Assembly (NCBI GenBank): GCA_016935485.1
Contig: JAFGQW010000123.1
Span: 1 to 32,543 of the forward strand
Length of the DNA: 32,543 nt
From: Planctomycetota bacterium
Lineage (GTDB): Bacteria > Planctomycetota > JAFGQW01
Direction of reading: 5' to 3'
The notes under the pieces are model-generated. The model was not told where the DNA came from. It ran no database searches and was given only the letters and a program-made list of their open reading frames with translations. Of this stretch, positions 3,599 to 23,884 are shown piece after piece (position 1 is the first letter of the stretch; every line of letters begins with the position of its first letter). Position numbers and translations under genes: made by a program.

Positions 3599-6259
3599 TC
3601 ACCCGCGCGGGGCAAGCCGGAGCGTCACGGCTGTCGTGGCACCGATCTCCACGTCGACGGCCACGGAGCCGCGCCCCTCGGAGACGTCCACCTCGATCGT
3701 GTAGCGCCCGCGCGGCAGAAACCGGCGGACGTGACGTCCGTTCTCGTCCGTCTGCAAGAGCCGCTGGTTCGCTCCCCGCGGATCGGTGCCGGGAGGGGGC
3801 TTGTCCTTGAAGTAGTCCGGTTGCATCAGGCGGCCGTCGCGGGAGAACTGCACCGGCACGCTGGCGACCGGCTTCCCGGCGCCGTCGACGACCGTCACCG
3901 TCACCGTGGCGCCGTCGGCGGCAAGGCGAAGCTCGACCTCCGGCAGAGCGTTGCCCGGCGTCACTTCCTTCTCGACCTCGACCCACTCGGGGTGGCTCGC
4001 GCGCACGATGACGCGCTCCTGCCTGAGTCCGATGCACCGGAACCACCCGTCGCGATCCGTCGCCGCGCGGCCCACCGTGCCGCGGGGCGATGACGTCCGC
4101 ACGACCTCGACGCCGGCGCGCTCGACCGGCGAACCGTCGGGTGCGAGCACGCGGCCCTGGATCGACGTGCCAGGGACAAGCCAGAGCTCGACAGGCGCCG
4201 GCGTGCCGCCGGGCGTCAGCTCGACGGTCGCGATCTCCGAGACGCGTCCGTCCTCGCTCGTGGCGAGCAGCGACTGCCGGCCCGCGGGTCTCCCGGCCAG
4301 GCGGAAGCGGCCGTCGCGGTCGCTGAACTTCTGCTGGAACGAGCCCCCGTCCTTGATGATCCACACCGAGAAGCGCGGGACGGGCACTCCGGTCGCCCGG
4401 TCGCTCACGACGCCCGTCACGGCGCCGGAGAGGGCTTCGAGCACGAGCGCCACGTCGGCCGTCCCTGCCGCGGCGAACACCGTCCGGTCTCCGCTCATCG
4501 GTGGTCCGTAGTCTGGCGAGAAGCAGCTGATCCGGTAGGTTCCCGCGGCGAGGTTCTTCACGAGGAATTGACCGTTCTCGTCGGTCGTGGCGTGCCCGAT
4601 GGCGGAGATCGCACCGCTCGCCGGGGATGCGGACACCGAGACCCTGGCCACGGGATGGCCGTTCGTGTCGCGAACCACGCCGCCGATCGAAAGCCCGGAG
4701 GAGAGCTGGAAGTCGACCCCGTTCAGGGGCTCCGGCTTCTCAAGCGTGCAGTCACGCGTCGCATGGGCGAACTCGTTCGCCGATACGTGAATCGTGTGGC
4801 GTCCGGGCGGGACGCGCTCCAGCGTGTAGCGACCGTCGGCGCCGGTGGTCTGCCGGGCGACCGGGACCGGGAGCGTGTCTCCGGACGGGCGGACCGAGAC
4901 TCTTGCCCCGGCGACCGGCTGGCCGTCGGGTCCGGTCACCCGGCCCGCGATGGACCCGGTCGCGGGGAGCGTCAATCGCACGTCGCGCCGCGTCTCGCCG
5001 GCGTACAGGGTGAGCGGTTCCGACTCGGCGAGCTGCCGCATGACCTCCACGGCGATCACGCGAACCGGAACGCCGGCCGGCACACCTTCGATCCGGAATC
5101 GACCGTCCCTGGCCACCTCCGCGACCCGGTCCGGACGAGCGAGCATGTGGCGCCGCTCGCCCTCCTTGTCCGCAATCACGCGGACATTCTCGGGCAGCAG
5201 CCCGCCGTCCTCCTTCTGGAGCACGCCCTCGATCACCGCGCCGCGCTCCAGTCGGACCACGTGCGGTCGTTCCGGCGACGTCTCGGCCACGTCCCGGAGG
5301 AGCATCGCCGCCGCTACGTACCCTGGCGCGGTCACGTGGTACCGTCCGTGCCCGACGTCGGGCAGCGTGAAGCATCCGTCCGGCCCGACCTCGATCGACT
5401 CCCGACCCAGCTGCGACCTGATGACCGCCCCCTGGACCGGGGCCTCCGACCCCGCATCCCGGACGATGCCGTGGACGGCCACGCTCCGTTTCACCCGGAA
5501 GTTCGCTTCCGTCTCGCTGTTGGCCTCGACCCTCACGTTCTCGTGCGCGAGCATGCGCCGGCCTGACCCGATCGTCGCGTGGTAGGCCCCGGGGCGAAGC
5601 GCTGCGATCCGGTAGTCGCCGTTCTCGTCCGTTTCCGCGTGTCCGCTCCCGCCTCGCATGTTCGACAGCTGCACGATGGCGCCCGCGCACGGCTCGTCCG
5701 TGCCCTCGTACACGACGCGCCCGCGGACCACTCCGGGCGGGCCGAGCGTGAGCGTGCAAGCGCTGTTCCCCTTCGTCGTGACGCGCAGCGCGTAGTACGA
5801 CGGGTGCGAAGCGGTGACGCTGAAGAGCGCGTCTTTCTCGTCGGGAAGGTCCGCGAACCGGAACCGACCGTCGGAGCCGGACACCACCTCGCGATCGACG
5901 TCCGTCTTGCCTCCGATACCGAACACCCGGAGCGTCTTCAGCCGGAGCGTGGCCCCCTCGATCGGCGCGCCGGCTTCGGTATTCACAACACCCCACACGC
6001 CGCCCTTCGGTTCCTGGACGGGCGCCGCAGTGGCGGGCGCCGCGGCGACCCTGGCCGACGCCGCCGGTTCGGGCCGCAACGCGACATCGGTGCGGGGTGG
6101 TTCGGGCTCGTGCTTCGTGGCCTCCGTTGCCGCCGCGGTCTTCGTCGGGGACGACCGGGCGTGGGCGGGCGTTTCGGGGGGTTCGCTGCGCGGCAGCACA
6201 AGAAGGACGACCGTGATCGCGACGAGCGCGACAACCAGGATCAGGTGCCAGACGCGCAT
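3599..6259 (-). CDS. Membrane-anchored protein with tandem carboxypeptidase-regulatory-like domains
   Basis: The protein has 886 residues from the chosen start. Residues 4-22 (HLILVVALVAITVVLLVL) form one membrane segment with no clear cleavage site. An Ala/Pro/Thr-rich linker follows to about residue 85. The rest is a string of eight or nine beta-sandwich domains of the carboxypeptidase regulatory-like type. Each has the pattern GxVxDxxGxPVxGAxV, then a DENG/DGRF turn and a LxxGxYxV close; examples are SIAGRVTGPDGQPVAGARV and GVVRDTNGHPVARVSVSA. No catalytic domain is present, so it probably has a surface, adhesive or structural role. The start is the third in-frame ATG (6259) because GGAGGG (6265-6270) sits six bases before it and a promoter lies at 6282-6310. 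Upstream ATGs at 6310 and 6292 would overlap that promoter. Confidence 0.88.
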   Translation of the reverse strand: MRVWHLILVVALVAITVVLLVLPRSEPPETPAHARSSPTKTAAATEATKHEPEPPRTDVALRPEPAASARVAAAPATAAPVQEPKGGVWGVVNTEAGAPIEGATLRLKTLRVFGIGGKTDVDREVVSGSDGRFRFADLPDEKDALFSVTASHPSYYALRVTTKGNSACTLTLGPPGVVRGRVVYEGTDEPCAGAIVQLSNMRGGSGHAETDENGDYRIAALRPGAYHATIGSGRRMLAHENVRVEANSETEANFRVKRSVAVHGIVRDAGSEAPVQGAVIRSQLGRESIEVGPDGCFTLPDVGHGRYHVTAPGYVAAAMLLRDVAETSPERPHVVRLERGAVIEGVLQKEDGGLLPENVRVIADKEGERRHMLARPDRVAEVARDGRFRIEGVPAGVPVRVIAVEVMRQLAESEPLTLYAGETRRDVRLTLPATGSIAGRVTGPDGQPVAGARVSVRPSGDTLPVPVARQTTGADGRYTLERVPPGRHTIHVSANEFAHATRDCTLEKPEPLNGVDFQLSSGLSIGGVVRDTNGHPVARVSVSASPASGAISAIGHATTDENGQFLVKNLAAGTYRISCFSPDYGPPMSGDRTVFAAAGTADVALVLEALSGAVTGVVSDRATGVPVPRFSVWIIKDGGSFQQKFSDRDGRFRLAGRPAGRQSLLATSEDGRVSEIATVELTPGGTPAPVELWLVPGTSIQGRVLAPDGSPVERAGVEVVRTSSPRGTVGRAATDRDGWFRCIGLRQERVIVRASHPEWVEVEKEVTPGNALPEVELRLAADGATVTVTVVDGAGKPVASVPVQFSRDGRLMQPDYFKDKPPPGTDPRGANQRLLQTDENGRHVRRFLPRGRYTIEVDVSEGRGSVAVDVEIGATTAVTLRLAPRG

Positions 6260-6281
6260 GGCAACCCTCCAGTCAGGGCGG

Positions 6282-6310
6282 ATCGTCCGCATGGACTCGT
6301 TTTCGGTCAA
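6282..6310 (-). promoter_or_regulatory. Predicted promoter of the tandem-repeat membrane protein
   Basis: On the minus strand, TTGACC (6305-6310) and GACGAT (6282-6287) are 17 bp apart. The -35 box is strong and the -10 box is weak. The predicted transcript start (about 6275) leaves a short leader carrying GGAGGG before the ATG at 6259. Confidence 0.45.
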
Positions 6311-6864: not shown

Positions 6865-7095
6865 GGTCACATCGAACTTGCCCGAGGACGGAGGCGGATG
6901 GCCCAGACTTGTGCTCATTCCTGAGGGGTTCGCACGACGATCCAGCGATCCGCCGGCGGCGCAAAGACTCTCAAGATGGTGCGGCAGCCGGCCTTCATGC
7001 GCAAGGCCCACACGAAGAGCTGCCGCTCCTTGGTGACCGAGGAGCCTGCCTGGACCGAGCCGGCCCTGGAACGCGATGTGGCGAGCCCGCCTCGC
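6865..7095. other. Unassigned gap sequence
   Basis: There is no convincing gene. On the minus strand a stretch near 6915-7040 reads protein-like (KERQLFVWALRMKAGCRTIL, then RVFAPPADRWIVV) but has no start, no partner and no family I recognise; it may be another remnant. Confidence 0.35.
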
Positions 7096-7212
7096 GGTCC
7101 AGCAGGGTTCTCGCTCCACCCCGAAGTGCAGCAGCTCTCCGGCGCCGCCGGCGCGCGGCTCGAGTGGCTCTGTCGCCACGGCGCCGGACCGCCCATCGCG
7201 CCCCACGAAGCC
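7096..7212 (+). pseudogene. IS91-family (Y2) transposase, central fragment A
   Basis: The plus strand reads GPAGFSLHPEVQQLSGAAGA and then RLEWLCRHGAGPPIA. This matches the conserved AGFSLHAxVxxxxxDRxxLERLCRYxxRPPxA block of IS91-family Y2 transposases. Nothing of the catalytic core follows. It is in frame with, and immediately upstream of, the gene at 7282, so a start-site predictor would wrongly extend that gene through this remnant. It is similar at DNA level to the fragment at 16051-16167. Confidence 0.68.
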
Positions 7213-7222
7213 CGCGGGAGGA

Positions 7223-7251
7223 TTGACGCTCGCCGCGCATCCCGGTACGCT
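7223..7251 (+). promoter_or_regulatory. Predicted promoter of the squalene-cyclase-like gene
   Basis: TTGACG (7223-7228) and TACGCT (7246-7251) are separated by exactly 17 bp. The predicted transcript start near 7258 lies about 24 nt before the ATG at 7282, and GGAG at 7270-7273 serves as ribosome-binding site. This fixes the gene start downstream of the transposase remnant. Confidence 0.65.
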
Positions 7252-7281
7252 GCCCGCGGTGGAACCCGCGGAGCTACGGCC

Positions 7282-10200
7282 ATGGGTGCGTTTGCCCGGC
7301 TCGGTCCGGCGATTCTCGTCGTTGCGCTTCTTGCGGTCTCGGTCGCGGCCCAGCCGCCGCCACGCCCGGCCGGTGCCCCCGTCGCCGCACCGCTCGCGCA
7401 CACGGAGACCTGCCCGCGCGACTGTCCCGCCTGCGCCCGCGCCATCGAGCGCGGCCTCGCATTCGTCGCGGCGCGCCAGCTCGGCGATGGCGGCTGGGGC
7501 AAGGACAAGGCCGTCCCGGTCTACAGCCTCGTGAACGGGCTGGCGCTGCTGGCCGAGGGGAGCACCACGGCACAGGGCCGGTACCGCGCGCAGGTCAAGC
7601 GCTTCGTCGACTGGCTGCTCGGCGCCGTGCCGGAGAGCGGCGCGATCGGCGCCGGCGACTTCATGGAGACCTGGCAGGTGGCGTTCGCGACGCTCGCGCT
7701 CGCGGCGATCCACCAGCGGGAGCCAATCGACGGGGTTCGCGTGCGCCTCGAGGGCCTCGGCCGGCGGCTTGCGGCGCTGCAGCGACCGTCCGGCGGCTGG
7801 TTTCACGGCGGCCGGCCGCACGCGAACTACTCGACGGATCTCGTCGCCGCCACGAACCTGGCGGCGATCGCTCTGTGCGCGCTCCGGCGCGAGGGGATCG
7901 CCTTCGACGAGACCCTGCTGGACCGCGCGGTCGCGCACTACGGCGTGATGCAGAATCCAGACGGGGGCTTCTCCTACGGCACTGCCGCCCACATGGAGAA
8001 GCTCAAGCGCTCGGAGGGCGGGCGCACCGCCGGCGCGCTGTACGCGCTGCGGCTGATGAGCCGCGGCGAGACGGAGCTGGCCCGCAAGGCGCAGGACTGG
8101 ATCGATCGGAACTTCGAGACCCTCCACGGCGACTCCGTGCACGGCGCGTTCCCGGAGTGCTTCTGGATCTCCTCGATGCTGTGCTCCCACCTCGGCGGGA
8201 CCTTCGCGCAGCGCTACCAGCAGGCCTACCTCCGGCCGCTCGTGAAGCTCGCGGACCTCCAGGCGGACGGCCGCATCCAGCGCGCGCCCGAGCCGCTCGC
8301 CGCGGAGCCGGGCAACGAGGACCTGGCGAAGTTCCGCAAGTTCGGCTTCAGCAGCATCGCGTACGACACGGCGCTCGGGCTGCTGGCGCTGCTCCATCCC
8401 TTTGGCCGCCTGTCCTTCGACCCCGGACCGCCGCCGGAGGTCCGCGGCGACCTCGTCCGCCGCGCCGCCGAGTGGCTGCTGGCCGAGCGGGACGCGGCGA
8501 CGGGAAGCTGGACCGCACTCTTCGGCGGCGAATCGGCGGACATCACGCTCACGAGCCTCGCCGCACTCGCCTTCCTGGCCGGCGGCAGCACGCCGCGGGC
8601 CGGTCCTCACCAGGAGGTCGTCGCGCGCGCGGTCGACTACGTGCGCGCAGCGGCCCGGAGCTACCGGTCGCACTGGACCTTCCAGCAGCCCTTCGCGATC
8701 CTGCTGCTGAGCGAAGTGCACCGGATCGATCCGAAGGAGCCGCTCCAGAAGACGATCCGGGACCTCCTCGACGAGGCCCGCCGCTATCAGAACGACGACG
8801 GCGGCTGGACCTACGGCGACCCGCGGAAGCTTCCTTTCGGCTCGAACATGGCTTCCGCATACTGCGTGGCGCTGGCCATGGCCCATGCGAAGGAGTGCGG
8901 CCTGCCGGTTCCCGAGGACTCCTTCGCGCGCGCGCTCGCCTACCTCCGCACATTCCTCAATCCCGACGGCGGCTTTCGCTACCACCAGGAGACGCAGTTC
9001 GTCTCCACGGCCGGAGCGCTCGCCACGTTCCTCGTGGCCGGCGAGCACGGCGCGATCGTCGACGCCGCCGTGCCCCACTTCCGGCGGGCGGCCATCGCCT
9101 ACACGGCCGGCGGATCGGCCGGCCATCTCGAGGGACACTTCATCGACGCGTTCGCGCTGGTGTACGGCACGATCGCGGCGCATCGCATCGGCGGCGAGAC
9201 CGCGGCCCGGTGGGACCGCGAGCTGCTGCGGCGGCTGAGTCCGGCGCAGGACCCGGCCGGCTGGTGGCGGCTCGAGACCGAGCCGCGACGCGCGGAGACT
9301 CCGCTCGCCGGGAAGCTCGACACGATCGCCGCCCTCTTCGCGCTCTCCGCCCCCGGCGACCGCATCCACCTCCTGCGTCCCGCGCGCCCGCGCGAGATCC
9401 CGCGGCAACCGGGCGAGGCGGCCGTCTCACCGCCAGCTGCTGCGGACGCACCGACGCGGCCGCCGCCCCAGGACGCCGCAGCGAAGCGCCGGGTCCGTCT
9501 GGCCCTCGGCCAGGCGTTTCTCGCCGGAGAGGGCCGCGCCGCCTTCCTCGCACGCCTCGACCAGGCCGGTCTTTGCGACGAGGACTGGATCGACATCGCC
9601 TGGCTCGTTCCCGGCGAGGAGCGATACCTCGGCGTGCTCCTGTCCCGCACGCCCGCCGCGCTCGAGCGCATGAGCGACGCGGAGTTCGCAGCCTTCCGCG
9701 CGCAGTGGTCCGCGAGCGCCGACCGTGCCTACCGCCGCTGGCACCCCCTGCCGGGCGAGCTCACCGGCTACGGCACCGAGCGCCAGCGGAACCGCGCTCT
9801 CGAGACGACCTGGATTCTCCTCCACGCGGCGACCGGGGCCGAGTTCCTCGAGCGCGTGCAGGACCGCATCGGCGACGCCGCGAGCCCGCTCTCGAGCGGA
9901 AAGGACAGTCTCGCGCTCCTCTTCCACCCGAAGAGCGGCGGTCCGACCCTGTACGGCCTGTCCGCCGCAGCCATCGCCGGTCTGACCGAGGCGCAGTTCC
10001 ATCTCTGGCGCGCGCGCTTCCTCCGCTGGGTAGAGCTCCACGTCCCCGGCCAGTCCGACGTCGCTCGCTTCGCGACCCTGTCCGACGAGGAGTTCGAATC
10101 GCACTTCCGGGAGATGCGCGAGCGTTACCAGCGCCTCGCTCTCCGGAATACGCTTCGCCGATTCCAGGAGCAGACCGGCCTCGGGATCGCGCGGCCGCGG

Positions 10201-10434
10201 TTTGCCGCCGGCGAGACCGCCGCCACGCTCGCCGCGGTCACGCCCGATTCCCCGGCGGCCGCTGCCGGCCTGCAGGCTGGGGACACCGTGGTGCGCGTCG
10301 AGGACGAGGCCACGCCGGAGTGGGACGACCTCATCTACCGGATCGGCACCTACCGGCCCGGCTCGTCCGTCCGGCTCGAAGTCAGGCGCGGCACGGCGTC
10401 CGTCGTCGCGATCCTCGCCCTGCCGGGGCCTTGA
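7282..10434 (+). CDS. Secreted squalene-cyclase-like repeat protein with C-terminal PDZ domain
   Basis: The protein has 1050 residues. A signal peptide (MGAFARLGPAILVVALLAVS, cleavage near VAAQ-PPP) predicts export. A Cys motif, C44-X3-C48-X2-C51 (CPRDCPAC), opens the first domain. The body is an alpha/alpha toroid of the prenyltransferase/squalene-oxidase type, with repeated QxxDGGW-like turns: QLGDGGWGKD, LQRPSGGW, MQNPDGGF (from residue 223), YQNDDGGWTYGD (from 502) and LNPDGGFRY (from 559). The DxDD acid motif of true class II terpene cyclases was not seen, so terpene chemistry is unlikely. Residues from about 967 to the end form a PDZ domain (VTPDSPAAAAGLQAGDTVVR). Its stop overlaps the next promoter. 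The role is unknown; PDZ suggests a periplasmic protein-binding scaffold. The start was chosen by promoter, GGAG and signal peptide. Confidence 0.88.
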   Translation: MGAFARLGPAILVVALLAVSVAAQPPPRPAGAPVAAPLAHTETCPRDCPACARAIERGLAFVAARQLGDGGWGKDKAVPVYSLVNGLALLAEGSTTAQGRYRAQVKRFVDWLLGAVPESGAIGAGDFMETWQVAFATLALAAIHQREPIDGVRVRLEGLGRRLAALQRPSGGWFHGGRPHANYSTDLVAATNLAAIALCALRREGIAFDETLLDRAVAHYGVMQNPDGGFSYGTAAHMEKLKRSEGGRTAGALYALRLMSRGETELARKAQDWIDRNFETLHGDSVHGAFPECFWISSMLCSHLGGTFAQRYQQAYLRPLVKLADLQADGRIQRAPEPLAAEPGNEDLAKFRKFGFSSIAYDTALGLLALLHPFGRLSFDPGPPPEVRGDLVRRAAEWLLAERDAATGSWTALFGGESADITLTSLAALAFLAGGSTPRAGPHQEVVARAVDYVRAAARSYRSHWTFQQPFAILLLSEVHRIDPKEPLQKTIRDLLDEARRYQNDDGGWTYGDPRKLPFGSNMASAYCVALAMAHAKECGLPVPEDSFARALAYLRTFLNPDGGFRYHQETQFVSTAGALATFLVAGEHGAIVDAAVPHFRRAAIAYTAGGSAGHLEGHFIDAFALVYGTIAAHRIGGETAARWDRELLRRLSPAQDPAGWWRLETEPRRAETPLAGKLDTIAALFALSAPGDRIHLLRPARPREIPRQPGEAAVSPPAAADAPTRPPPQDAAAKRRVRLALGQAFLAGEGRAAFLARLDQAGLCDEDWIDIAWLVPGEERYLGVLLSRTPAALERMSDAEFAAFRAQWSASADRAYRRWHPLPGELTGYGTERQRNRALETTWILLHAATGAEFLERVQDRIGDAASPLSSGKDSLALLFHPKSGGPTLYGLSAAAIAGLTEAQFHLWRARFLRWVELHVPGQSDVARFATLSDEEFESHFREMRERYQRLALRNTLRRFQEQTGLGIARPRFAAGETAATLAAVTPDSPAAAAGLQAGDTVVRVEDEATPEWDDLIYRIGTYRPGSSVRLEVRRGTASVVAILALPGP

Positions 10435-11814: not shown

Positions 11815-12023
11815 GATCCACGTTTCGGCCGTGGTCGAGACTATCCCCCCGGTGGGCGCCGGTCAAGCCGAGGATGGCGTGACGATGCCGGGACACCGGT
11901 GGTCGCCGTGGGGTCGGCACGCGCGAACACCACGGCCCCGCCGCCTCCCGACCAGTGCCAGGCGCGCGACCACGACGGCACCGTGCTCTACCGCCTGTGC
12001 CGCCCGCGTGCCGCACGGTCGAC
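11815..12023. other. Gap sequence without a gene
   Basis: I see no gene here. The block CCCGCGTGCCGCACG near 12003-12017 recurs at about 17780-17794, where it forms one arm of a leader hairpin, but no partner arm is present here. Confidence 0.35.
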
Positions 12024-12052
12024 TTGCCGGCCGGCGATCCATTCGGGAGAAT
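12024..12052 (+). promoter_or_regulatory. Predicted promoter of the subtilisin-like protease
   Basis: TTGCCG (12024-12029) and GAGAAT (12047-12052) are 17 bp apart. The leader to the ATG at 12177 would be about 118 nt. Confidence 0.38.
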
Positions 12053-12176
12053 GGGGCGCACGGGGATCCCGCATCGCGGCGCCGGATCGGGACCGGTAGC
12101 GGCCCCGCCCGCGCGCCCTCAGTGCGACGGACCATCCGTTCGCACGTCCACCGGATCCAGAGGAAGTCGCCATCCG

Positions 12177-13634
12177 ATGAAGCCAGGCGTCCTCGCGCTC
12201 GCATCGTTGCTGGTGCTCCCGCTCGGCGCGTCCGGACAGGAGGAGTGGGCGTACTACCTGGTGCTGGGCAAGAGCCAGCTGCTCGCCGACGGAGGGGCGT
12301 TCGCGGAGTTCCAGAAGGAGAACGGAGGACTCCCGGCGGCGGAGCTCCGCAAGAAGACGATCGCCCGTTTGAAGGCGATCGCCGCTCAGGAGCAGCCGGG
12401 GTTGCTCGCGGCGCTCGGCTCGCCGCGGGATGTGCGCCCGCTCTGGATCGTGAACGCCGTGGTGGTGCCGCTTTCCCAGACGAAAGCGCGCGCGGCACAG
12501 GCGCTCGAGTGCGTGCGATGGGTCTACCCGGCGGAGTATTTCCCCTGGGAGGAGGGCGGCGCCGGCAAGGTCGCCGAGGTGCTGTCTCGGACGAAACGCG
12601 AGCCGTTCGCGATCGGGAGGAAGAGGATCCCGTGGAACCTCAAGGAGCTGAACGTGCCCGCGGTATGGAAGAGCCTCAAGGTCACGGGGGAGGGCGTGGT
12701 CGTCACGTCGTTCGACGAAGGTCTCAACTACCGGCACCGGGACCTGCGAAAGAACATGTGGTTGAACTCCGACGAGATCCCGAACAACGGCAAGGACGAC
12801 GACCAGAACGGCCTGGTCGATGATCTCTACGGTTTCGACTTCACGCGGATGAAGGCCGAGGTGCTGGATGCCGGCCCGGACCAGCACGGGACCTTGACCT
12901 CGTGCCTCATCGTGGGCGACGGCACGGGCGGACAGGTCACCGGCGTCGCGCCGCGGGCCGAGCTCATGGCGGTTCGCGCGGAGGGAGGAGCGTACCTGGC
13001 CGCCCGCGCCTTCCAGTACGCCCTGGAGGAAGGCGCTCGGGTGGTCAACATGAGCTTCAGCATCCCCGATCTCGGGGAGACGCGCGGCCTGTGGCGGATG
13101 ATGGCCGAGCACGCCACCTGTGCGGGGATGGTCCTCGTGTCGGGCGCCGGGAACTTCCGCCAGGACGCCGACGTGCCGGAGCAGATTCGCATCCCGGAGG
13201 GCATCCCCTGCGTCATCTGTGTGGGCGGCGTGGACGAGCACAGACGACTCGCGCCTTTCTCCAGCACGGGACCCGTCGAGTGGAAGAGCGTCAAGCTCTA
13301 CCAGGACTTCCCCCTGCCCCGCGGCCTCGTGAAGCCGGATGTGGTGGCGTTTCCCGGACCGCGGCTCGGGCTGGTCGGCACGGACGACGACGCCTCGTAC
13401 CTGGACGACGGCAACCTGCGCCAGGGCAACTCGCTCAGCGGTCCGCAGGTGGCCGGCGTCTGTGCGCTGATGCTCTCCGCGAATCCGGACCTCCCGCCGT
13501 GGCGGGTCAAGGAGCTGCTCGAGAGCACGGCCCGGGACCTGGTTCCGCGCGGCAAGGACAACGAGACCGGGGCGGGCCTCGTGAACGCGTTCAAGGCGGT
13601 CCAGGCCGCGATCCGGGAACGCAAGCGCCGGTGA
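12177..13634 (+). CDS. Secreted subtilisin-like (S8) serine protease
   Basis: The protein has 485 residues. A signal peptide (MKPGVLALASLLVLPLGASG) precedes a propeptide-like segment to about residue 165. The S8 catalytic domain has all key residues. Asp180 is in VVVTSFDEGLNYRHRDL, His237 in GPDQHGTLTS, oxyanion Asn326 in VSGAGNF, and Ser419 in GNSLSGPQVAGV. The serine motif differs from the usual GTSMAxP by having NSLSGP. After Asp180 comes an acidic stretch, NNGKDDDQNGLVDDLYGFDF, typical of subtilases with a Ca-binding insertion. It is predicted to cleave proteins outside the cytoplasm. The ATG at 12177 is preceded by GAGGAAG ten bases upstream. It is monocistronic; the next gene has its own promoter. 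Confidence 0.92.
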   Translation: MKPGVLALASLLVLPLGASGQEEWAYYLVLGKSQLLADGGAFAEFQKENGGLPAAELRKKTIARLKAIAAQEQPGLLAALGSPRDVRPLWIVNAVVVPLSQTKARAAQALECVRWVYPAEYFPWEEGGAGKVAEVLSRTKREPFAIGRKRIPWNLKELNVPAVWKSLKVTGEGVVVTSFDEGLNYRHRDLRKNMWLNSDEIPNNGKDDDQNGLVDDLYGFDFTRMKAEVLDAGPDQHGTLTSCLIVGDGTGGQVTGVAPRAELMAVRAEGGAYLAARAFQYALEEGARVVNMSFSIPDLGETRGLWRMMAEHATCAGMVLVSGAGNFRQDADVPEQIRIPEGIPCVICVGGVDEHRRLAPFSSTGPVEWKSVKLYQDFPLPRGLVKPDVVAFPGPRLGLVGTDDDASYLDDGNLRQGNSLSGPQVAGVCALMLSANPDLPPWRVKELLESTARDLVPRGKDNETGAGLVNAFKAVQAAIRERKRR

Positions 13635-13749: not shown

Positions 13750-13777
13750 TTGCCTCGTTCCTTCCCCCGCCTACAAT
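13750..13777 (+). promoter_or_regulatory. Predicted promoter of the lyase-like gene
   Basis: TTGCCT (13750-13755) and TACAAT (13772-13777) are 16 bp apart; the -10 box matches five of six bases. An ATG at 13776 lies inside the -10 box, which argues against it as a translation start. Confidence 0.5.
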
Positions 13778-13847
13778 GGCGTGCGGCGGGCCGCGGCCCA
13801 CGGATGGCCGCGTCCCCGCGGCCGGCACTTTCGGGACGGAGGTCGCC

Positions 13848-15899
13848 GTGAAGACCGTGATCGCGCTGTTTAGCCTGTGGCTGGCCGCGCATCCGTCATG
13901 GGCCGGAGATCGCGGTGATCTCGCGCCGGGCCCGCACCCGAAACTGCTGCTGACCGCGGCCCAGGTGGACGCCCTGCGGCTCCGCCTTCGCGAGAAGCCG
14001 TGGGTCGCCAAGGCGCTCGCCGCGGTGCTGAGCAACGCCGACGCCTGGATGGAACGTCCCATCAAGCTGCCGCCTCGCGGCGGCCAATGGTGGCATCACT
14101 ACACGTGCAAGAAGTGCGGCAGCACCCTCGAAACGCTCTCCGCCAGGGAGCACCGGTGCCCCACCTGCAGGAAGGTCTACACCGGGGAACCGTACGACAC
14201 CGTGATCCTCTCGCGCGAACACAGCGCTCTGGCCCAGGCGTGCCGGGACCTGGGGCTGGTCTACCAGCTTCGCCGCGAACCCCGCTACGCCGCCAAGGCC
14301 CGGGAGATCCTGCTCGCCTACGCTCGCCGCTATCTCCGGTACGAGCGGCATACCATTCATGGAGAAAACCGGGTGGGCGGCGGTCGCGTGGGCTCGCAGA
14401 CGCTCGACGAATCCGTCTGGTTGATCCCCATGGTGCAAGGGTGCGATCTGATCCACGAGGCCCTGACCCCGGAGGAGCGCAGGCAGATCGAGCACGGACT
14501 GCTCCGGCCGGCCGCCCAGACCATCCGCGACCACCGGATGGGCATTCACAACATCCAGTGCTGGAAGAACGCGGCCGTGGGTCTGGTCGGGCTCTACCTC
14601 GACGACCCGGAGCTGATCGACAGTGCCTTTCACTCCCGCCACGGCTACTTTCGCCAGATCGAGCGCGGCGTGCGGGCCGACGGCTCGTGGTTCGAGGGCG
14701 CGTGGGGCTACCACTTCTATACGCTCCGCGCCCTGGAGCCGCTGGTCGCCGCAGGGCTGAACAGCGGCATCGCGGTGGACGTGCCGGAGTACCGGGCGAT
14801 GTTCCTGGCGCCGCTCCGGCAAGCGCTGCCCAACCTGACGCTCCCGGGGTTGAACGACAGCCGGGACGTCGACCTGAGGCAGTGCCGCGAGGTGTTCGAG
14901 GCCGGCTACCAACGAAGCGGCGAGGCGGAGGTGCTGCGCGTGCTGCACGCCGGGCCGCGGGATTCGCTCCAGGCCGCGCTGTGGGGCATCGACACGTTGC
15001 CCCCGGCGCCGCCGTCGGTCGAGGCGAGCCGCAACAGCGAGGCGAGCGGGATCGCCGTGCTGCAGCTGGACGGCGGACCGGATGCGGTGTGCGTGATGAT
15101 GGACTACGGACCCCACGGCGGCGGCCACGGCCACCCGGACAAGCTGAGCGTGATCGTCTACGGCTACGGCAAGATCCGCGCTCTCGATCCCGGTTGCATC
15201 CGCTACGGCGCGCCGCTTCACGGTCAGTGGTACCGCCGGACCCTCAGCCACAACACCGTGGCCATGGACGGGCGCTCGCAGCGGTCCGCGACGGGAACGC
15301 TGCGCTATTTCCGCACCTCTCCGCCAGACGCCCCCCTGCGGTTCGCCGCGGTGTCGGCGACGGCCGATCCGGCGCTGCCCGGCGCCCGGTTTCGTCGCAG
15401 CCTGGCCTTGCTCGACGGCGGCATCCTGATCGACGTGGTGGAGGTCGAAAGCGAAACGAAGCACACCTTCGACTGGACCTTCCACTGTCGCGGCGCGCTC
15501 ACGTCCTCGCTGCACGGCAAGGCCGTGAAGCGGCTGGGCACCTCGGATGGGTACGAGATCCCGCGCGAGGTGCGCCTGGCCCGAACCGCGAAGCGATGGC
15601 GCGCCGTCTGGCAGGACGAAGGGGCCTCACTTGCCCTGGACATGGAGGCCGCACCCGACACCGAAGTCTTCACGGCCGTGGCCCCCGGCAATCCGGCCAC
15701 GGAGGAGGTGCCCATGGTCGTTGCCCGGCGGAAGGGCGAGAAGACCCACTTCGTGGCCGTGATGCAGCTCGCGGCCCGCCCCGCCAGCATCCCCTGGCGG
15801 ATCGAAACGAGCGGCGGGCTCGCGGTCGTGGTCGACACGCCGAACGGGGCCGTGACGTTTGCCGTCGAGAGCGGCGCAGTTTCGCGGGCCGCGCGATGA
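13848..15899 (+). CDS. Secreted heparinase II/III- or alginate-lyase-like polysaccharide lyase
   Basis: The protein has 683 residues from a GTG start preceded by GGAGG (13838-13842). A signal peptide (VKTVIALFSLWLAAHPSWA) directs export. The N-terminal alpha toroid contains a Cys4 knuckle (C87, C90, C104, C107; YTCKKCGS and HRCPTCRK). The catalytic-type motif GSWFEGAWGYHFYTLRAL follows (Tyr288, His289). The C-terminal beta-sandwich of the heparinase II/III type starts with HGGGHGHPDKLSVIVYG (His423, His427, His429) and TLSHNTVAMDG (His468, Asn469). These match the lyase families that cleave uronate polysaccharides (PL15/PL17-like). The protein is therefore expected to depolymerise an acidic polysaccharide by beta-elimination outside the cell; substrate is not readable. 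No sulfatase, transporter or other sugar gene is adjacent. Confidence 0.86.
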   Translation: MKTVIALFSLWLAAHPSWAGDRGDLAPGPHPKLLLTAAQVDALRLRLREKPWVAKALAAVLSNADAWMERPIKLPPRGGQWWHHYTCKKCGSTLETLSAREHRCPTCRKVYTGEPYDTVILSREHSALAQACRDLGLVYQLRREPRYAAKAREILLAYARRYLRYERHTIHGENRVGGGRVGSQTLDESVWLIPMVQGCDLIHEALTPEERRQIEHGLLRPAAQTIRDHRMGIHNIQCWKNAAVGLVGLYLDDPELIDSAFHSRHGYFRQIERGVRADGSWFEGAWGYHFYTLRALEPLVAAGLNSGIAVDVPEYRAMFLAPLRQALPNLTLPGLNDSRDVDLRQCREVFEAGYQRSGEAEVLRVLHAGPRDSLQAALWGIDTLPPAPPSVEASRNSEASGIAVLQLDGGPDAVCVMMDYGPHGGGHGHPDKLSVIVYGYGKIRALDPGCIRYGAPLHGQWYRRTLSHNTVAMDGRSQRSATGTLRYFRTSPPDAPLRFAAVSATADPALPGARFRRSLALLDGGILIDVVEVESETKHTFDWTFHCRGALTSSLHGKAVKRLGTSDGYEIPREVRLARTAKRWRAVWQDEGASLALDMEAAPDTEVFTAVAPGNPATEEVPMVVARRKGEKTHFVAVMQLAARPASIPWRIETSGGLAVVVDTPNGAVTFAVESGAVSRAAR

Positions 15900-16170: not shown

Positions 16171-17358
16171 TCAGCTGCGGATGGCGGCCTCGATCCGGGC
16201 CCGGCACTCGGGGCAGCAGATCTCGGTCTTCGCGTCGTGGTCGCGCAGTCCGTTGGCATAGCGGCAGGCGCACCTCGGGCTCGAACACTTCGCGATGCCG
16301 ACGCTCCGTCCCACGGAGCAGAGCACCTGCTTGAAGGTGCGCGTGACGAGCTTCTTCCACTCAGGCATCTCCCCCGTGAACCAGGGCAGGAAGCGGTTGT
16401 ACGAGATTACCGACCAGCGGTTTCCGCTGACTGCGAAGTTGAAGCCGAGGTCCTTCGTGAAGAAGAGGTCCGCACCCGTGACCAGGAGGAGGATATCCTG
16501 CGGCCGGCGAACCAGGGCGATCTGCTTGTTGATCGTGCAATCCATGATCTGCTCGCCGCTCCACTGCGGCCGGTATTGCCGCGTCACGCCAAGATCGAAC
16601 AGGCGCAGGTTCTTCCACCGGTCGGTCTGCCGGAGCCAGCCCCGATAGGCCGTCACGAAGACGTGATCCACGCGCAGCTCCTCCGCGGTGAAACCCGTCT
16701 CCTTGAGCAGCGCCTGAACCTCGGACTCGCTCGCGTCCTTGTCGAACCGTGCCCGGTGCTGGCCCACCTCGAGCAGCATCGAGCCGCGCTCCGCCTGGGG
16801 CAGCGGTCGGAACGGGAACGACCGGATGCGGACCTCGATCGGAAACTCGCCCTTCAGACGCTCCGCCACCGCCTGCACGAGCCCCACCTCCACCGGCGGC
16901 AGCGCAACGAGCACGATCCCGATCGGATCCGCGACGGAGCGCTCGAGCTTCGGCGGGACCGGCCGCACGGGCTCGCCGAACACGCGGCGGGCCGCGTCCC
17001 GCGCCCGATCCTCGCACGCGTGCTCCAGCACCCACCGCGCGGTCTTCTCCGCCGCCTTGACCTGTCCGAGGTCGTTGAGGGTCTCGGCGTAGAGCCCCTG
17101 GCAGATCATGTCGCGGGGCGCTGCCGCCACGGCCTTCTTCAGGACCACGAGCGCTCGCTTCCGTTCCCCGGCTGCACGCAGCCGCTCGACCCACTCGTGC
17201 ACGATCCCGAGGCTGCCCTCGATCTCGGACTTCCGGGCCTGCAGCGCCAGGCTCGCCTCGCGGGCGAGCTCCCTCGGAATCGCGTCCTCGCTCTGTCCCG
17301 GCGCCGACAGCGCAAGCGCGACAAGACCGCACCACCCCAACCCGCTCCAAAACGACAT
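16171..17358 (-). CDS. Archaemetzincin-family protein lacking the catalytic histidines
   Basis: The protein has 395 residues. A signal peptide (CGLVALALSAPGQ) precedes a helical TPR-like region (about residues 30-125). The archaemetzincin (M54) domain follows: IGIVLVALPPVEVGLVQAVA at its start, then the family hallmark VTGADLFFTKDLGFNFAVSG and WSVISYNRF. In M54 proteases the next element is HExxHxxGxxHC-X4-C, then CxxC. Here the aligned stretch is CSVGRSVGIAKC. Cys347, Ser348, Arg351 and Lys357 stand where the three zinc His and the catalytic Glu should be, and only Gly354 is kept. The structural zinc cysteines remain (C358, C363, C382, C385). The gene is thus probably a secreted pseudo-protease. 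It lies 64 bp after a small membrane protein gene, likely in one operon. Confidence 0.82.
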   Translation of the reverse strand: MSFWSGLGWCGLVALALSAPGQSEDAIPRELAREASLALQARKSEIEGSLGIVHEWVERLRAAGERKRALVVLKKAVAAAPRDMICQGLYAETLNDLGQVKAAEKTARWVLEHACEDRARDAARRVFGEPVRPVPPKLERSVADPIGIVLVALPPVEVGLVQAVAERLKGEFPIEVRIRSFPFRPLPQAERGSMLLEVGQHRARFDKDASESEVQALLKETGFTAEELRVDHVFVTAYRGWLRQTDRWKNLRLFDLGVTRQYRPQWSGEQIMDCTINKQIALVRRPQDILLLVTGADLFFTKDLGFNFAVSGNRWSVISYNRFLPWFTGEMPEWKKLVTRTFKQVLCSVGRSVGIAKCSSPRCACRYANGLRDHDAKTEICCPECRARIEAAIRS

Positions 17359-19506: not shown

Positions 19507-22500
19507 TCACCGCTCGCGAAGCTCGGTGCACACCGCCTCGCCGAATCCGAGGCCCGCCCGTTTCCACCGGGCAAGACACGAATAGCGCGGCATGCCCTTG
19601 CGGAGTGCTTCGCCGAGCGCAGCCGCGGCGCCCGGCACGCGCCCGAGGCGGCCCAGCGCCTCGGCCGCGTGCAGATGGACCAGTCCGTGGTCGAGGGCCT
19701 GGCAGGCTCGCTCCAGGGCCGGCCACGCCTCGGCGGCCGCGCCGAGCGCGAGCCACGCCTCGCCGAGCACCCATGCGCTCGGACCGTCCTCGAGGACCGG
19801 CAAGCTGCGCCGCAATTCCTCGTCGAGGTTCCTGCCCGCAAGCCGCCGCCGGGCCAGCTCCCGGAGGGGATCGCCGGCCGGCGCCGGGCGGTCCGTCTTG
19901 CCCGTCCCATCGCCTTCCCGCGCCAGGAAGATCCAGGTCCGGAGCAGCTCGAAGCAGCCGCCGCTCGACGCGGGGTTCACAGCCGGAAGCCCCGATTCCT
20001 CCCAGCAGACCACGGCCGCATGCCATCCCTGCGTGCGCCCCGCCACCCGCACGGCGAGGGCGTCCACCTGGCAAGCGTCCTCGGCAGGATCGCCCGGTCT
20101 CAACAGGGCCCGGCAATGCTTCACCGACCGATCCGCCTCCGCCGTGCGATCCGGCCGGTCCAGCTCCCAGCCGGCCTTCAGGATCTCCAGCGCCAGACGT
20201 TCCTCCCTCTTGAGCTCCTTCTTCAATGCCGTGGCGAAGACCGCCTCCACGGTCGGGGCGTCATCCGCGAGTGTGGCCACCTCGGCCCACACCCGCCACG
20301 CCCAGGCGGGCGCGTCCTGGCCCCAGAGCGTGAGCGCTCTCTCGATGTCGGCCCCCGCGCCCTCCAGATCTCCGGTGAAGAGGCGGCATCTCGCGCGCTG
20401 GGCCCGGGCCGCCTTGTGCATGGGCACGCGCTCCAGCAGCGCATCCAGCTCCGGGAGCGCCTCGCCGTAGCGCTCCTCGTCCATGAGATACATGGCCAGC
20501 TTCTCGTGGACCAGCGGCCGGTAGCAGACGGCCAGCGCGTTTCGAAGGTCGCGGTAGGCCGCGGCGCGCTCTCCCCGGCGCCACCCGTAGCGGGCCCGTT
20601 CGTGCAGGATGGCGGCCACGTTGGCGGGCGGCTGCCGCGGATCCTCGATCCCCTGCTGCCAGAACCGCACGGCTTCGTCCTCGCGGCCCAGCGCCAGGAG
20701 CGCGTTGCCCAGGTTGATCTGCGCCAGCTCCAGATGCGGGTCGACCCGGAGCGCGGCGGCGAAGTCCTCGACCGCACCCGCGTGGTTTCCGGCCCGGTGC
20801 CGTTCCCAGCCCCGCGAGTTCAAGAGCCACCGGGAACGCGGCTCGATGGCGAGCCCCTCGGCCAGCACCTGGTCCGCTTCCGCGCGACGGTCCTTGCCGA
20901 GCTCGCGCAGCGCGTAGAAGAGCGCCACCCGCGCCTCCTCGTACCTCGGGTCCGCAGCCAGGGCCGCGCGAAAATCCCCCTCGGCCAGGGCCCACTGCCG
21001 GGCTTGCCGGTGCACGTAGCCCTGGAGCAGCAGCAGCGTCGGGTCTCCGGGTCGCATCCCGAGCAGCGTCCCGCACGCCGCAAGCGCCGCGCCGTAGTCG
21101 CCGGTCGTCCGGGCCAGCTCGACCTGGACGATGCGCGCGGGCAAGTAGTCAGGGCACGCCTCCACCATGCGCTCGCACCGGCCCCGCGCCTCGGTCCGCT
21201 CGCCTTGCTGCGTGCCGAGGTAGAGCGCGGTCAGCAGGTAATCCAGCCGGGTGCGCATCTGGTGCGACTCGGCCCGGTCGACCTCGTCCTGCGCCGCGGC
21301 GTAGCGCCACATCGACCGCAGCACGATGGCGCGAAAGTAGTGCGCCGCCCGGCGGCTCCGAAGCTCCTCCAGCGGGTCCAGCCGCTCCAGCGCGCGCCCG
21401 GGTTCGAGGCGCTTGTACGCGATCCACGCCCGGAGGATGCGGGCCTCGTCGATCTCGTCGGCCGTGGCGGGCGCAAAGGCCGCCATCTCCCGGTCCAGCG
21501 ACTCCAGCACCGGCGCGTCGTGCGAGGCGAAGAGCTGGATCCAGGCATCCTCGCGGATCCGGATCCACGAGGCCGACGCGTTCTCGGCCCACGGCGAAGG
21601 CGACCGGATCAGGATCAGGGCCATGAGACACGTCGCCACCGCCACCAGGGCCACGATCGTGGCGGCCACGAGTGGTCTTTGCCGGAGCTGCCGCGCATAC
21701 CGGCGAACGCGGCGGACGGGCCGCGCGTGGACCCGCTGTCCCGCGGCCACCCGGCGCAGATCCTCGCCGAGCGCCGCGGCCGAGGCCAGGCGCGCCTCGG
21801 GCCTTTTTTCCAGGCAGCGAAGGAGCACGACCTCCAGCGCCCGCGGAACCTGGGGATTCACCCGGCGCGGCGGCAGCGGGGGCTCGCTCGCGATCCGCGT
21901 GATCAGCCCGGCGCAGCCCTCCACCGCGTCGAAGATCGGACGGCGGGTCACCACCTCGTAGAGCGTCGCGGCCAGGGCGTACACGTCGGTGGCTGGTCCC
22001 ACGTCCCGCGACCGACCCAGCGCCTGTTCCGGCGCCATGTAGAGCGGCGTGCCCAGGATGGCCGAGGTGGCGGTGAGGGTCTCCGCGTCCGCGGTGCGGG
22101 CGATCCCGAAGTCGACGAGCCGGAGCCGGCCGTGCTCGTCCTCGAGGATGTTGGACGGCTTCACATCGCGGTGGATCACGCCCGCCTGGTGCGCGTGGTG
22201 GAGCGCATCGGCCAGCGCGGCGAAGCGACCGGCCCACCGGCGGCAGGCATCGGCGTCGGGCCGCGACGCGGCGACGTCTCCGGTTTCCGCGAGACCCGCA
22301 CCCAGGACCGCCTGCAGGGATCGCCCTTCCACGCGCTCCATCTTGTAGTAGAGAAACGCGCCGTCCTGGCCCGCACCGAGCACCTTGACCACGTGGGGAT
22401 GATCCAGCCGCTCGGCCAGACGGGCCTCGCGCTTGAAGCGAAGAAGCGCCACGGTGTCGCCCTGGAGGGCCGGGCCCAGGATCTTCAGGGCCACGCGCGC

Positions 22501-22845
22501 GCCGCCGGGCTCCACCGCGTCGTAGACGATGCCCATGCCGCCCCGGCCGATCACCCCCCGGATCTCTGCTCCGCCCAGCCGGTCGCCCGCCTGGAGCACG
22601 GGCGCCGCCGCCGACGGGAGCTCGGCCTGCAACGCCTCGAGCGCGTGCAGGGCGTCGTCGAACGTGGCCGTGGACCGGACCCCGGCCGTCCGGCGGAGAT
22701 CCGGCACGGAGAGAACGTGCCCCTGGTTGAACAGATCCTGCGCTTCCCAGAGGAGGTCGGCCAGCGGCTGTTCCTGCGGCGAGAGCGCATCCGCGGGGTC
22801 CGGCGCCGGCGGCGGCGAGGACGGAGGCGGCCGGTGCGCGCTCAT
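19507..22845 (-). CDS. Ser/Thr protein kinase with membrane segment and TPR repeats
   Basis: The protein has 1112 residues. After a Pro-rich start (1-90), a Hanks-type kinase domain spans about 95-370. It has the Gly loop GRGGMG (100-105), catalytic Lys121 in VALKIL, VIHRDVKPSNIL (Asp227, Lys229, Asn232), Asp245 of LVDFGIAR and YMAPEQAL, so it should be active. Residues 392-412 (PLVAATIVALVAVATCLMAL) form one membrane helix. The rest to the C-terminus is TPR-like helical repeats (AAAYRDLRNALAVCYRPLVH, ALLALGREDEAVRFW), probably a sensor outside the membrane. Its ATG at 22845 overlaps the TGA stop of the sigma factor gene (ATGA), so the two are translationally coupled. Kinases next to ECF sigma factors are known in Planctomycetota, where the kinase is thought to control the sigma factor. 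Confidence 0.93.
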   Translation of the reverse strand: MSAHRPPPSSPPPAPDPADALSPQEQPLADLLWEAQDLFNQGHVLSVPDLRRTAGVRSTATFDDALHALEALQAELPSAAAPVLQAGDRLGGAEIRGVIGRGGMGIVYDAVEPGGARVALKILGPALQGDTVALLRFKREARLAERLDHPHVVKVLGAGQDGAFLYYKMERVEGRSLQAVLGAGLAETGDVAASRPDADACRRWAGRFAALADALHHAHQAGVIHRDVKPSNILEDEHGRLRLVDFGIARTADAETLTATSAILGTPLYMAPEQALGRSRDVGPATDVYALAATLYEVVTRRPIFDAVEGCAGLITRIASEPPLPPRRVNPQVPRALEVVLLRCLEKRPEARLASAAALGEDLRRVAAGQRVHARPVRRVRRYARQLRQRPLVAATIVALVAVATCLMALILIRSPSPWAENASASWIRIREDAWIQLFASHDAPVLESLDREMAAFAPATADEIDEARILRAWIAYKRLEPGRALERLDPLEELRSRRAAHYFRAIVLRSMWRYAAAQDEVDRAESHQMRTRLDYLLTALYLGTQQGERTEARGRCERMVEACPDYLPARIVQVELARTTGDYGAALAACGTLLGMRPGDPTLLLLQGYVHRQARQWALAEGDFRAALAADPRYEEARVALFYALRELGKDRRAEADQVLAEGLAIEPRSRWLLNSRGWERHRAGNHAGAVEDFAAALRVDPHLELAQINLGNALLALGREDEAVRFWQQGIEDPRQPPANVAAILHERARYGWRRGERAAAYRDLRNALAVCYRPLVHEKLAMYLMDEERYGEALPELDALLERVPMHKAARAQRARCRLFTGDLEGAGADIERALTLWGQDAPAWAWRVWAEVATLADDAPTVEAVFATALKKELKREERLALEILKAGWELDRPDRTAEADRSVKHCRALLRPGDPAEDACQVDALAVRVAGRTQGWHAAVVCWEESGLPAVNPASSGGCFELLRTWIFLAREGDGTGKTDRPAPAGDPLRELARRRLAGRNLDEELRRSLPVLEDGPSAWVLGEAWLALGAAAEAWPALERACQALDHGLVHLHAAEALGRLGRVPGAAAALGEALRKGMPRYSCLARWKRAGLGFGEAVCTELRER

Positions 22846-23423
22846 GACACGGCCTCCTGGATCGCGTGCAGCTCCTCGCCCAGGCGGGCGAGCGCCCGGA
22901 AGAAGAGCACGCGCACCGCTCCCTCGCTTCGCCCGAGGGCCTCGGCCGTGGCCCGGCCGTCGCGGCCCTCGAAGTGGCGGAGCAGCACCACCTGCCGGTA
23001 GTCGTCGGGCAGGCGATCCAGCGCAGCCATCACCAGCCGGCTCAGCTCGCGCTTGATGGCCCCGGACGCGGGCGTGGTATGAACCGACCGCAGCGGGGGA
23101 GCGTCCGTCCGATCCAAGCGCTCCGGCTCCTCGTGGCGCCGCCCGGATCGCAGCGCGTGCAGCGCCTTGTTCCGCGCGATGCCCGCCACCCAGCGGGCAA
23201 AGCCCCCGGGCCCCCGGTCCTGGAATCGGTTGAGAGACCGAAACGCCTCGAGGTGCACCTCCTGGAGCAGATCCTCCACGCGTTCGGCTCGATCCGGAAG
23301 CGAGTGCAGGCAGCCGCCCAGCACGCCGATCAGCCGCCGGTTCTGGCGCTGGATGAGCGAAGCCCACGCGGCCTCGTCGCCGGCGCGGGCGCGCTCGACC
23401 AGGGGCAGGGTCTCGTGGGTCAC
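22842..23423 (-). CDS. ECF-type RNA polymerase sigma factor
   Basis: The 193-residue protein has region 2 (RVEDLLQEVHLEAFRSLNRF, then GFARWVAGIARNKALHALRS, the -10 recognition helix) and region 4 (LDRLPDDYRQVVLLRHFEGR, then TAEALGRSEGAVRVLFFRAL, the -35 recognition helix-turn-helix). These are the two parts of an ECF sigma factor. The GTG at 23423 (VTHETLPLVERARAGDEAAW) is the likely start; a TTG one codon upstream is possible and its ribosome-binding site is weak. A -10-like TAGAAT lies at 23471-23476. The stop overlaps the kinase start, and no membrane anti-sigma factor gene is nearby, so the kinase is the likely regulator. Confidence 0.9.
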   Translation of the reverse strand: MTHETLPLVERARAGDEAAWASLIQRQNRRLIGVLGGCLHSLPDRAERVEDLLQEVHLEAFRSLNRFQDRGPGGFARWVAGIARNKALHALRSGRRHEEPERLDRTDAPPLRSVHTTPASGAIKRELSRLVMAALDRLPDDYRQVVLLRHFEGRDGRATAEALGRSEGAVRVLFFRALARLGEELHAIQEAVS

Positions 23424-23884
23424 CAAAGCACGCCTTGCGTTCCTCGGTTCGCACCAGGGCAAGGGCGGCCATTCTACCCGCTCCGGGAAACTCCGGCCCA
23501 CGTCTTTCTCGCGGGCGGGCCAGAGCGCACCACGGACCGCGCTTTGGAGCGAGACCGGCCGGCAGGCTCGGCCGGCAAGAAACGCAACACGGACGCCAGT
23601 CGCGACCGGGCAAGCGGAGCATGGTACCGATCCGCTTTCTGGCGGGATCGGAGTCGGTATCGCGATCGCGATCGGCGTGTTCCGTTTCGCCCGGGCACCG
23701 GTGCGGGCTCGACACCGATACCGGTTGCGATGGCGATGCCGAGGAAAACGAGCAGCACCCGTCGGAGTCGATCGGCAAAGCTCCTCGCTGGAGCCGCAGA
23801 TCCGAGGGGACGGCGGAGCAACGAGGGAGGGAAGCATGGAACCACTCCTGGGGCAACCCATCGCCGTGGCGGCGGCACGAAAAC
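23424..23884. other. Gap with imperfect GATCGC/GATACC simple repeats
   Basis: No gene is seen. Degenerate hexamer repeats of the type (GATCGC)n and (GATACC/GATGGC)n occur at about 23645-23685 and 23705-23740. They flank a CACCGGTG palindrome at 23694-23701. The function is unknown. Confidence 0.4.
23471..23476 (-). promoter_or_regulatory. Possible -10 box of the sigma/kinase operon
   Basis: TAGAAT on the minus strand matches five of six bases of the sigma-70 -10 box. It would give a leader of about 40 nt. No good -35 hexamer was found at 16-18 bp. Confidence 0.3.

Follow-up and report, generated by a model that had tools for sequence, protein, structure and literature searches.

What does a protein of a peptidase family do when the residues of its catalytic site have all been replaced? 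This question is raised by a gene lying at positions 16171-17358 on the minus strand of a 32,543-nucleotide stretch of planctomycete DNA (here called the window), whose product has the core of an archaemetzincin and lacks its zinc-binding site.

An archaemetzincin gene with an erased catalytic site

The gene encodes 395 amino acids from an ATG start, with an in-frame stop just before the ATG and an AAAGG resembling a ribosome-binding site about 12 bases upstream of it. Its GC content by codon position (0.68/0.47/0.90) is like that of the neighbouring genes. The features referred to below are the following:

16171-17358, minus strand: site-less archaemetzincin gene including its stop (16174-17358 without the stop), 395 aa
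17287-17358, minus strand: probable signal peptide, residues 1-24 (hydrophobic stretch passing a crude test; clearer in relatives)
16981-17274, minus strand: TPR-like helical region, residues 29-126 (Pfam TPR_19 below cutoff, family profile, predicted helices)
16174-16920, minus strand: archaemetzincin (M54) domain including the insert, residues 147-395 (Pfam M54, Foldseek)
16585-16797, minus strand: lineage-specific helical insert, about residues 188-258, edges approximate (anchor distance, model helices at 193-244)
16288-16320, minus strand: erased catalytic motif, residues 347-357 (alignment to solved archaemetzincins, column counts)
16204-16287, minus strand: Cys4 cluster, residues 358, 363, 382 and 385, together with the lost Met-turn Met, Cys365 (column counts, spacing)

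Membership in the M54 homology family was established by a Pfam match (PF07998) over residues 309-390 that scored 26.7 bits against a cutoff of 24.4; the score of 58.6 bits for the NCBIfam model NF033823 (archmetzin) lies below its cutoff of 145. In phmmer searches the protein matched archaemetzincins of solved structure (3lmc, E 9e-6), and the alignment placed residues of the window protein over the HEIGHLFGLGHC-type site of 3lmc and 3zvs. A profile built from site-less proteins, which are described below, matched the archaemetzincins of the PDB with an E value of 8e-18. An AlphaFold model built on 12 sequences was of middling quality (mean pLDDT 72.6, pTM 0.53), with a pLDDT of about 90 across most of the C-terminal 80 residues. 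With this model as query, Foldseek returned archaemetzincins as the only matches with E<=0.001 (3lmc, E 9e-8; 2x7m, E 1.4e-6); the alignment behind the model contained intact archaemetzincins, and the agreement in fold therefore depends in part on the sequence similarity. The protein therefore has in common with the archaemetzincins of family M54 (2x7m, 3zvs/4axq, 3lmc) the fold, the VTxxDL...SYxR core, the Cys4 cluster with its spacing and the invariant residues R340 and D375. In contrast, it is devoid of the zinc-binding His residues, the catalytic Glu and the Met of the Met-turn, its domain is enlarged by about 50-70 residues of helical insert, and TPR-like helices precede that domain.

Metzincins work through a set of zinc ligands and a catalytic base, a mechanism that is established for the family. 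At the corresponding position the window protein reads C347-S348-V-G-R351-S-V-G354-I-A-K357-C358, so that CSVGRSVGIAK replaces the HExxHxxGxxH of active M54 enzymes. In 40 aligned intact homologs, H347, E348, H351 and H357 were each found in 40/40 sequences, and the four replacements (C347, S348, R351 and K357) are for this reason not chance variation. The Met of the CxM Met-turn, found in 38/40 intact homologs, is Cys365 here. Among the site-less rows, column counts revealed no lineage-specific conserved His, Glu or Asp able to rebuild the site, and a column-by-column search for a new catalytic triad found none; D297, R340 and D375 are conserved, but they are common to the intact enzymes too. 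A first reading made from the sequence only had described an archaemetzincin with its catalytic site erased and its fold kept. The Pfam match and the 40/40 columns bear this out, and the residue numbers it gave for the site and the cysteines are exact. Having neither metal ligands nor a catalytic base, the protein would be unable to act as a metzincin.

Site-less archaemetzincins form one lineage

The same genome encodes a paralog (L002) that is 30% identical and carries CTAGSAFEIGR at the site. A genome of the same family and class (G025) encodes a protein with CTSAEVLQLGR (L004) and also an intact archaemetzincin (L037). Other site-less proteins were found in G276, G070, G133, G148, G163, G044 and G106, and in total, genomes with site-less relatives number eight among the other planctomycetes, two among the Desulfobulbaceae and one among the Opitutaceae. 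The two Desulfobulbaceae MAGs encode a TPR protein of 855 aa that ends at a contig edge and has the site SSINFTFGIPR; the Opitutaceae MAG encodes a protein (L120) with SSVGFALGVPR. The site-less frames span 284-855 aa in several phyla. A contig scan gave matches with a three-row alignment as query and none with the window protein as single query, and a search for viral and plasmid homologs found none. In the window's own genome (405 contigs, about 90% complete) we found two archaemetzincins, both site-less, and no intact one. Among other planctomycete archaemetzincins, L060, L085, L081 and L105 have lost the site in part or entirely, in separate events (HEIGQ, HELGR, HALAR and others). Within the part of the archaemetzincin literature that was covered, co-mention with Planctomycetes was confined to work on mini-zincins.

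When the motif columns were left out, the site-less rows fell on one side of a single branch with a support of 99/94 in two data sets, and the bootstrap trees contained this branch in 99 and 100% of cases; these are trees of long branches for which no root was inferred, and the order within the site-less lineage is unsure. In a quick tree built with the motif columns kept and every odd sequence included, the separation was less clean. One protein, L081 from G144, which is insert-free and long-branched, was excluded from the second tree; its site was probably emptied separately.

The lineage is also marked by an insert. Between the anchors R177 and W266, 69-90 residues are present in 10/11 site-less rows (90 in the window protein) versus 17-36 in the 40 intact rows; the insert is thus found in 10/11 site-less and 0/40 intact rows, L081 being the exception. 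The proteins of the Desulfobulbaceae and Opitutaceae (L118-L120) carry it too in the alignment, and in the model of the window protein it is helical at residues 193-244. By the loss of all ligands, its place on the 99/94 branch and its helical insert, the window protein belongs to this lineage.

The particular replacements vary among the members. Position 347 is Ser or Cys in 8/11 site-less rows, position 348 is Thr or Ser in 7/11, position 357 is Arg or Lys in 6/11, and position 351 is free. Whether the four substitutions of the window protein recur in homologs had been posed as a check; it is the loss of the site that is conserved, rather than the letters that replaced it. None of the nearest homologs has kept the site, and the close relative with an intact HExxHxxGxxH that would have pointed to a misread was not among them. 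The view that this is an intact frame and not a dying gene is upheld by the site-less paralog and by relatives across genomes and phyla that form one lineage.

Selection could be measured on the sole close pair, the two Desulfobulbaceae proteins L118 and L119. Over their archaemetzincin part, dN was 0.030 and dS 0.175 (NG86), a dN/dS of about 0.17, and the pair is under purifying selection. For the window gene itself, no ortholog above about 30% identity was found among the genomes examined, and evidence for constraint on it is indirect, via this distant pair.

Export, TPR-like helices and the Cys4 cluster

The signal peptide of the window protein is plausible, with no positive charge ahead of the hydrophobic stretch, and signal peptides are clear in the relatives L002, L013, L018, L027 and L032. 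To judge from these leader sequences, the window protein is probably exported. The suggestion that a signal peptide is unusual for archaemetzincins did not hold, as 14/65 intact planctomycete ones passed the same crude test; export appears to be common, and ordinary, among planctomycete archaemetzincins. The TPR-like N-terminus proposed with it stands as helices, predicted at residues 29-126 of the model, and as a match between the profile of the site-less family (profile positions 53-114) and designed TPR proteins; by Pfam it is weak, TPR_19 scoring 20.6 bits under a cutoff of 25. In the Desulfobulbaceae protein L118, TPR-like helices flank the archaemetzincin domain on both sides.

The four cysteines C358, C363, C382 and C385 are kept as Cx4C...CxxC, and the CxxxxC and CxxC spacing is that of M54 (PMC3427221). 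In AfAmzA the four cysteines bind zinc, and other metzincins carry two disulfides at the equivalent place (PMC3427221). In an exported protein the cluster could, by analogy, be either a zinc site or a pair of disulfides. The sequence-only reading had spoken of a structural zinc site: the cysteines are indeed present, the zinc was assumed, and since an exported protein could hold zinc or disulfides the label should read Cys4 cluster. Two site-less proteins have lost cysteines, three of the four in the Opitutaceae protein L120 (3254-4501) and the first and last in L079 (G106); in L079, where two went together, disulfides would be a better explanation than zinc binding. Changes in the cluster were also observed in enzymes with an intact site. 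Seven Euryarchaeota MAG proteins (L125-L130, L132) have an intact HExxHxxGxxH, yet an Asp and a one-residue insertion replace the first cysteine (HELGHTFGLYHDDANPDC), and three planctomycete archaemetzincins with an intact site (L066, L067, L073) have Asp as the last residue of the cluster.

Genomic neighbourhood

No partner and no conserved neighbourhood or operon were found near the window gene or the relatives scanned. On the opposite strand, the window gene is adjoined by a subtilase gene (11955-13634, plus strand) followed by a heparinase/alginate-lyase-like gene (13776-15899, plus strand). A protein kinase with TPR repeats (19507-23856, minus strand) lies close to the window gene, and kinases lie near several relatives too; kinases being abundant in these genomes (32 in the window's genome and >130 in several others), their proximity is a weak link. 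A toroid-repeat protein beside the paralog was discounted, its family having 17 matches in the genome; a member of the same squalene-cyclase-like family lies in the window at 8536-8976 (plus strand), inside the gene at 6976-10434. The window also encodes, at 3599-6310 on the minus strand, a protein with seven carboxypeptidase-regulatory-like domains.

Comparison with known inactive proteases

The closest parallel is CarG of Myxococcus xanthus, which, like the window protein, is derived from an archaemetzincin, is not a protease and keeps the cysteine cluster. CarG retains His ligands (HQx2Hx2Ex2HC), binds two zinc atoms and acts by binding the regulator CarD (PMC8156234). It is short and has kept its His residues, whereas the window protein has lost all ligands and is probably exported. 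Membership of the window protein in the CarG family was rejected, with 30 bits against a cutoff of 250 for NCBIfam NF033824 and all three His replaced, and none of the neighbouring genes scanned around the window gene was noted as resembling CarD. Vertebrate AMZ1 is likewise an archaemetzincin with a site off the consensus; its third ligand is Asn, Ser or Thr and its activity is doubtful (PMC3427221). Only one ligand is changed in AMZ1, however, and neither insert nor TPR relates it to the window protein. The iRhom pseudoproteases offer a parallel in manner of working only, in that a protease fold is re-used without catalysis and with added domains (PMC6451368); they are eukaryotic and membrane-embedded, and their fold is unrelated. 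Inactive archaemetzincins as such are known from CarG; what the site-less proteins add is a lineage apart from it, emptied more completely and probably exported.

A probable binding protein

The kept fold, the cysteines, the insert and the TPR-like helices together fit a binding protein, and we consider it reasonably probable that the window protein is a maintained, non-catalytic pseudo-peptidase serving as an exported binding or adaptor protein. The lineage, now scattered across Planctomycetota, Desulfobulbaceae and Opitutaceae, carries the helical insert absent from intact enzymes, and the catalytic zinc site of its archaemetzincin fold most likely disappeared in a single event in its ancestor. 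Located outside the cytoplasmic membrane, the protein may hold a protein or peptide partner with its emptied metzincin cleft, its insert and its TPR-like helices, the four cysteines stabilising the fold as a zinc finger or as disulfides. A bolder version is put forward more tentatively: these proteins would be an undescribed family of exported pseudo-archaemetzincins with TPRs, old and spread across phyla, whose empty cleft and insert make up a dedicated protein- or peptide-binding site. The residues replaced in the cleft vary across the site-less rows, which argues against a single conserved ligand. An inhibitor, a scaffold and a binding protein had all been proposed, and the present data do not separate these three.

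The protein might instead regulate proteolysis by pairing with an active archaemetzincin, or with another exported protease, or by serving as its decoy, and so restrain its activity or its substrates. Intact archaemetzincins stand beside the site-less one in G025, G148, G276, G070, G044 and G106, and iRhoms, pseudoproteases of another fold, do regulate proteases (PMC6451368, PMC3149277). The window's genome, in its roughly 90% complete assembly, has only site-less archaemetzincins, however, and no intact one was found in G133 or G163 either; regulation of an active sibling is therefore not a likely role here, and we regard protease regulation as a whole as unlikely. Somewhat less likely again is a role centred on the Cys4 cluster, with the exported protein sensing metal or redox state through a zinc or disulfide switch and the cleft of no importance. 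Besides D375 and R340 the cysteines are the most conserved feature, and a redox switch of the cluster has been proposed for archaemetzincins (PMC3427221), but intact enzymes conserve the cluster just as strongly, and there it is most simply read as stabilising; L120 and L079 have dispensed with several of its cysteines.

Decay under relaxed selection, with a frame left open by chance, would accord with the long branches, the scattered distribution and the separate partial losses in L060, L081, L085 and L105. It is hard to reconcile with two intact copies in one genome, frames of 284-855 aa in several phyla, a Cys4 cluster invariant in most members, a common insert and the low dN/dS of the Desulfobulbaceae pair, and we hold it to be improbable. 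A new hydrolase with Ser/Cys347 or Ser/Thr348 as nucleophile in the old cleft is suggested by the prevalence of these residues in most of the lineage; since the lineage has no His or Asp of its own conserved as a partner, and L027 and L043 deviate at these positions, we think it very improbable. The chance that a sequencing or assembly error ruined an intact motif is negligible. The source assembly is fragmented, but four codons would have had to change with the frame left open, and independent assemblies of other species are without the same residues; for the lineage, the existence of a paralog, and of homologs from other assemblies and phyla, rules out error and lone decay alike.

The reading as a binding protein bears on how the family is understood and annotated. 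A Pfam match alone should not lead such genes to be named metalloproteases. Little archaemetzincin biology is known, and CarG, whose function is the best established in the family, is no protease. A second, far more thoroughly emptied lineage, probably exported and equipped with an insert and TPR-like helices, hints that the archaemetzincin fold may serve protein binding more widely, and the site-less lineage provides a set of proteins on which such a role can be tested.
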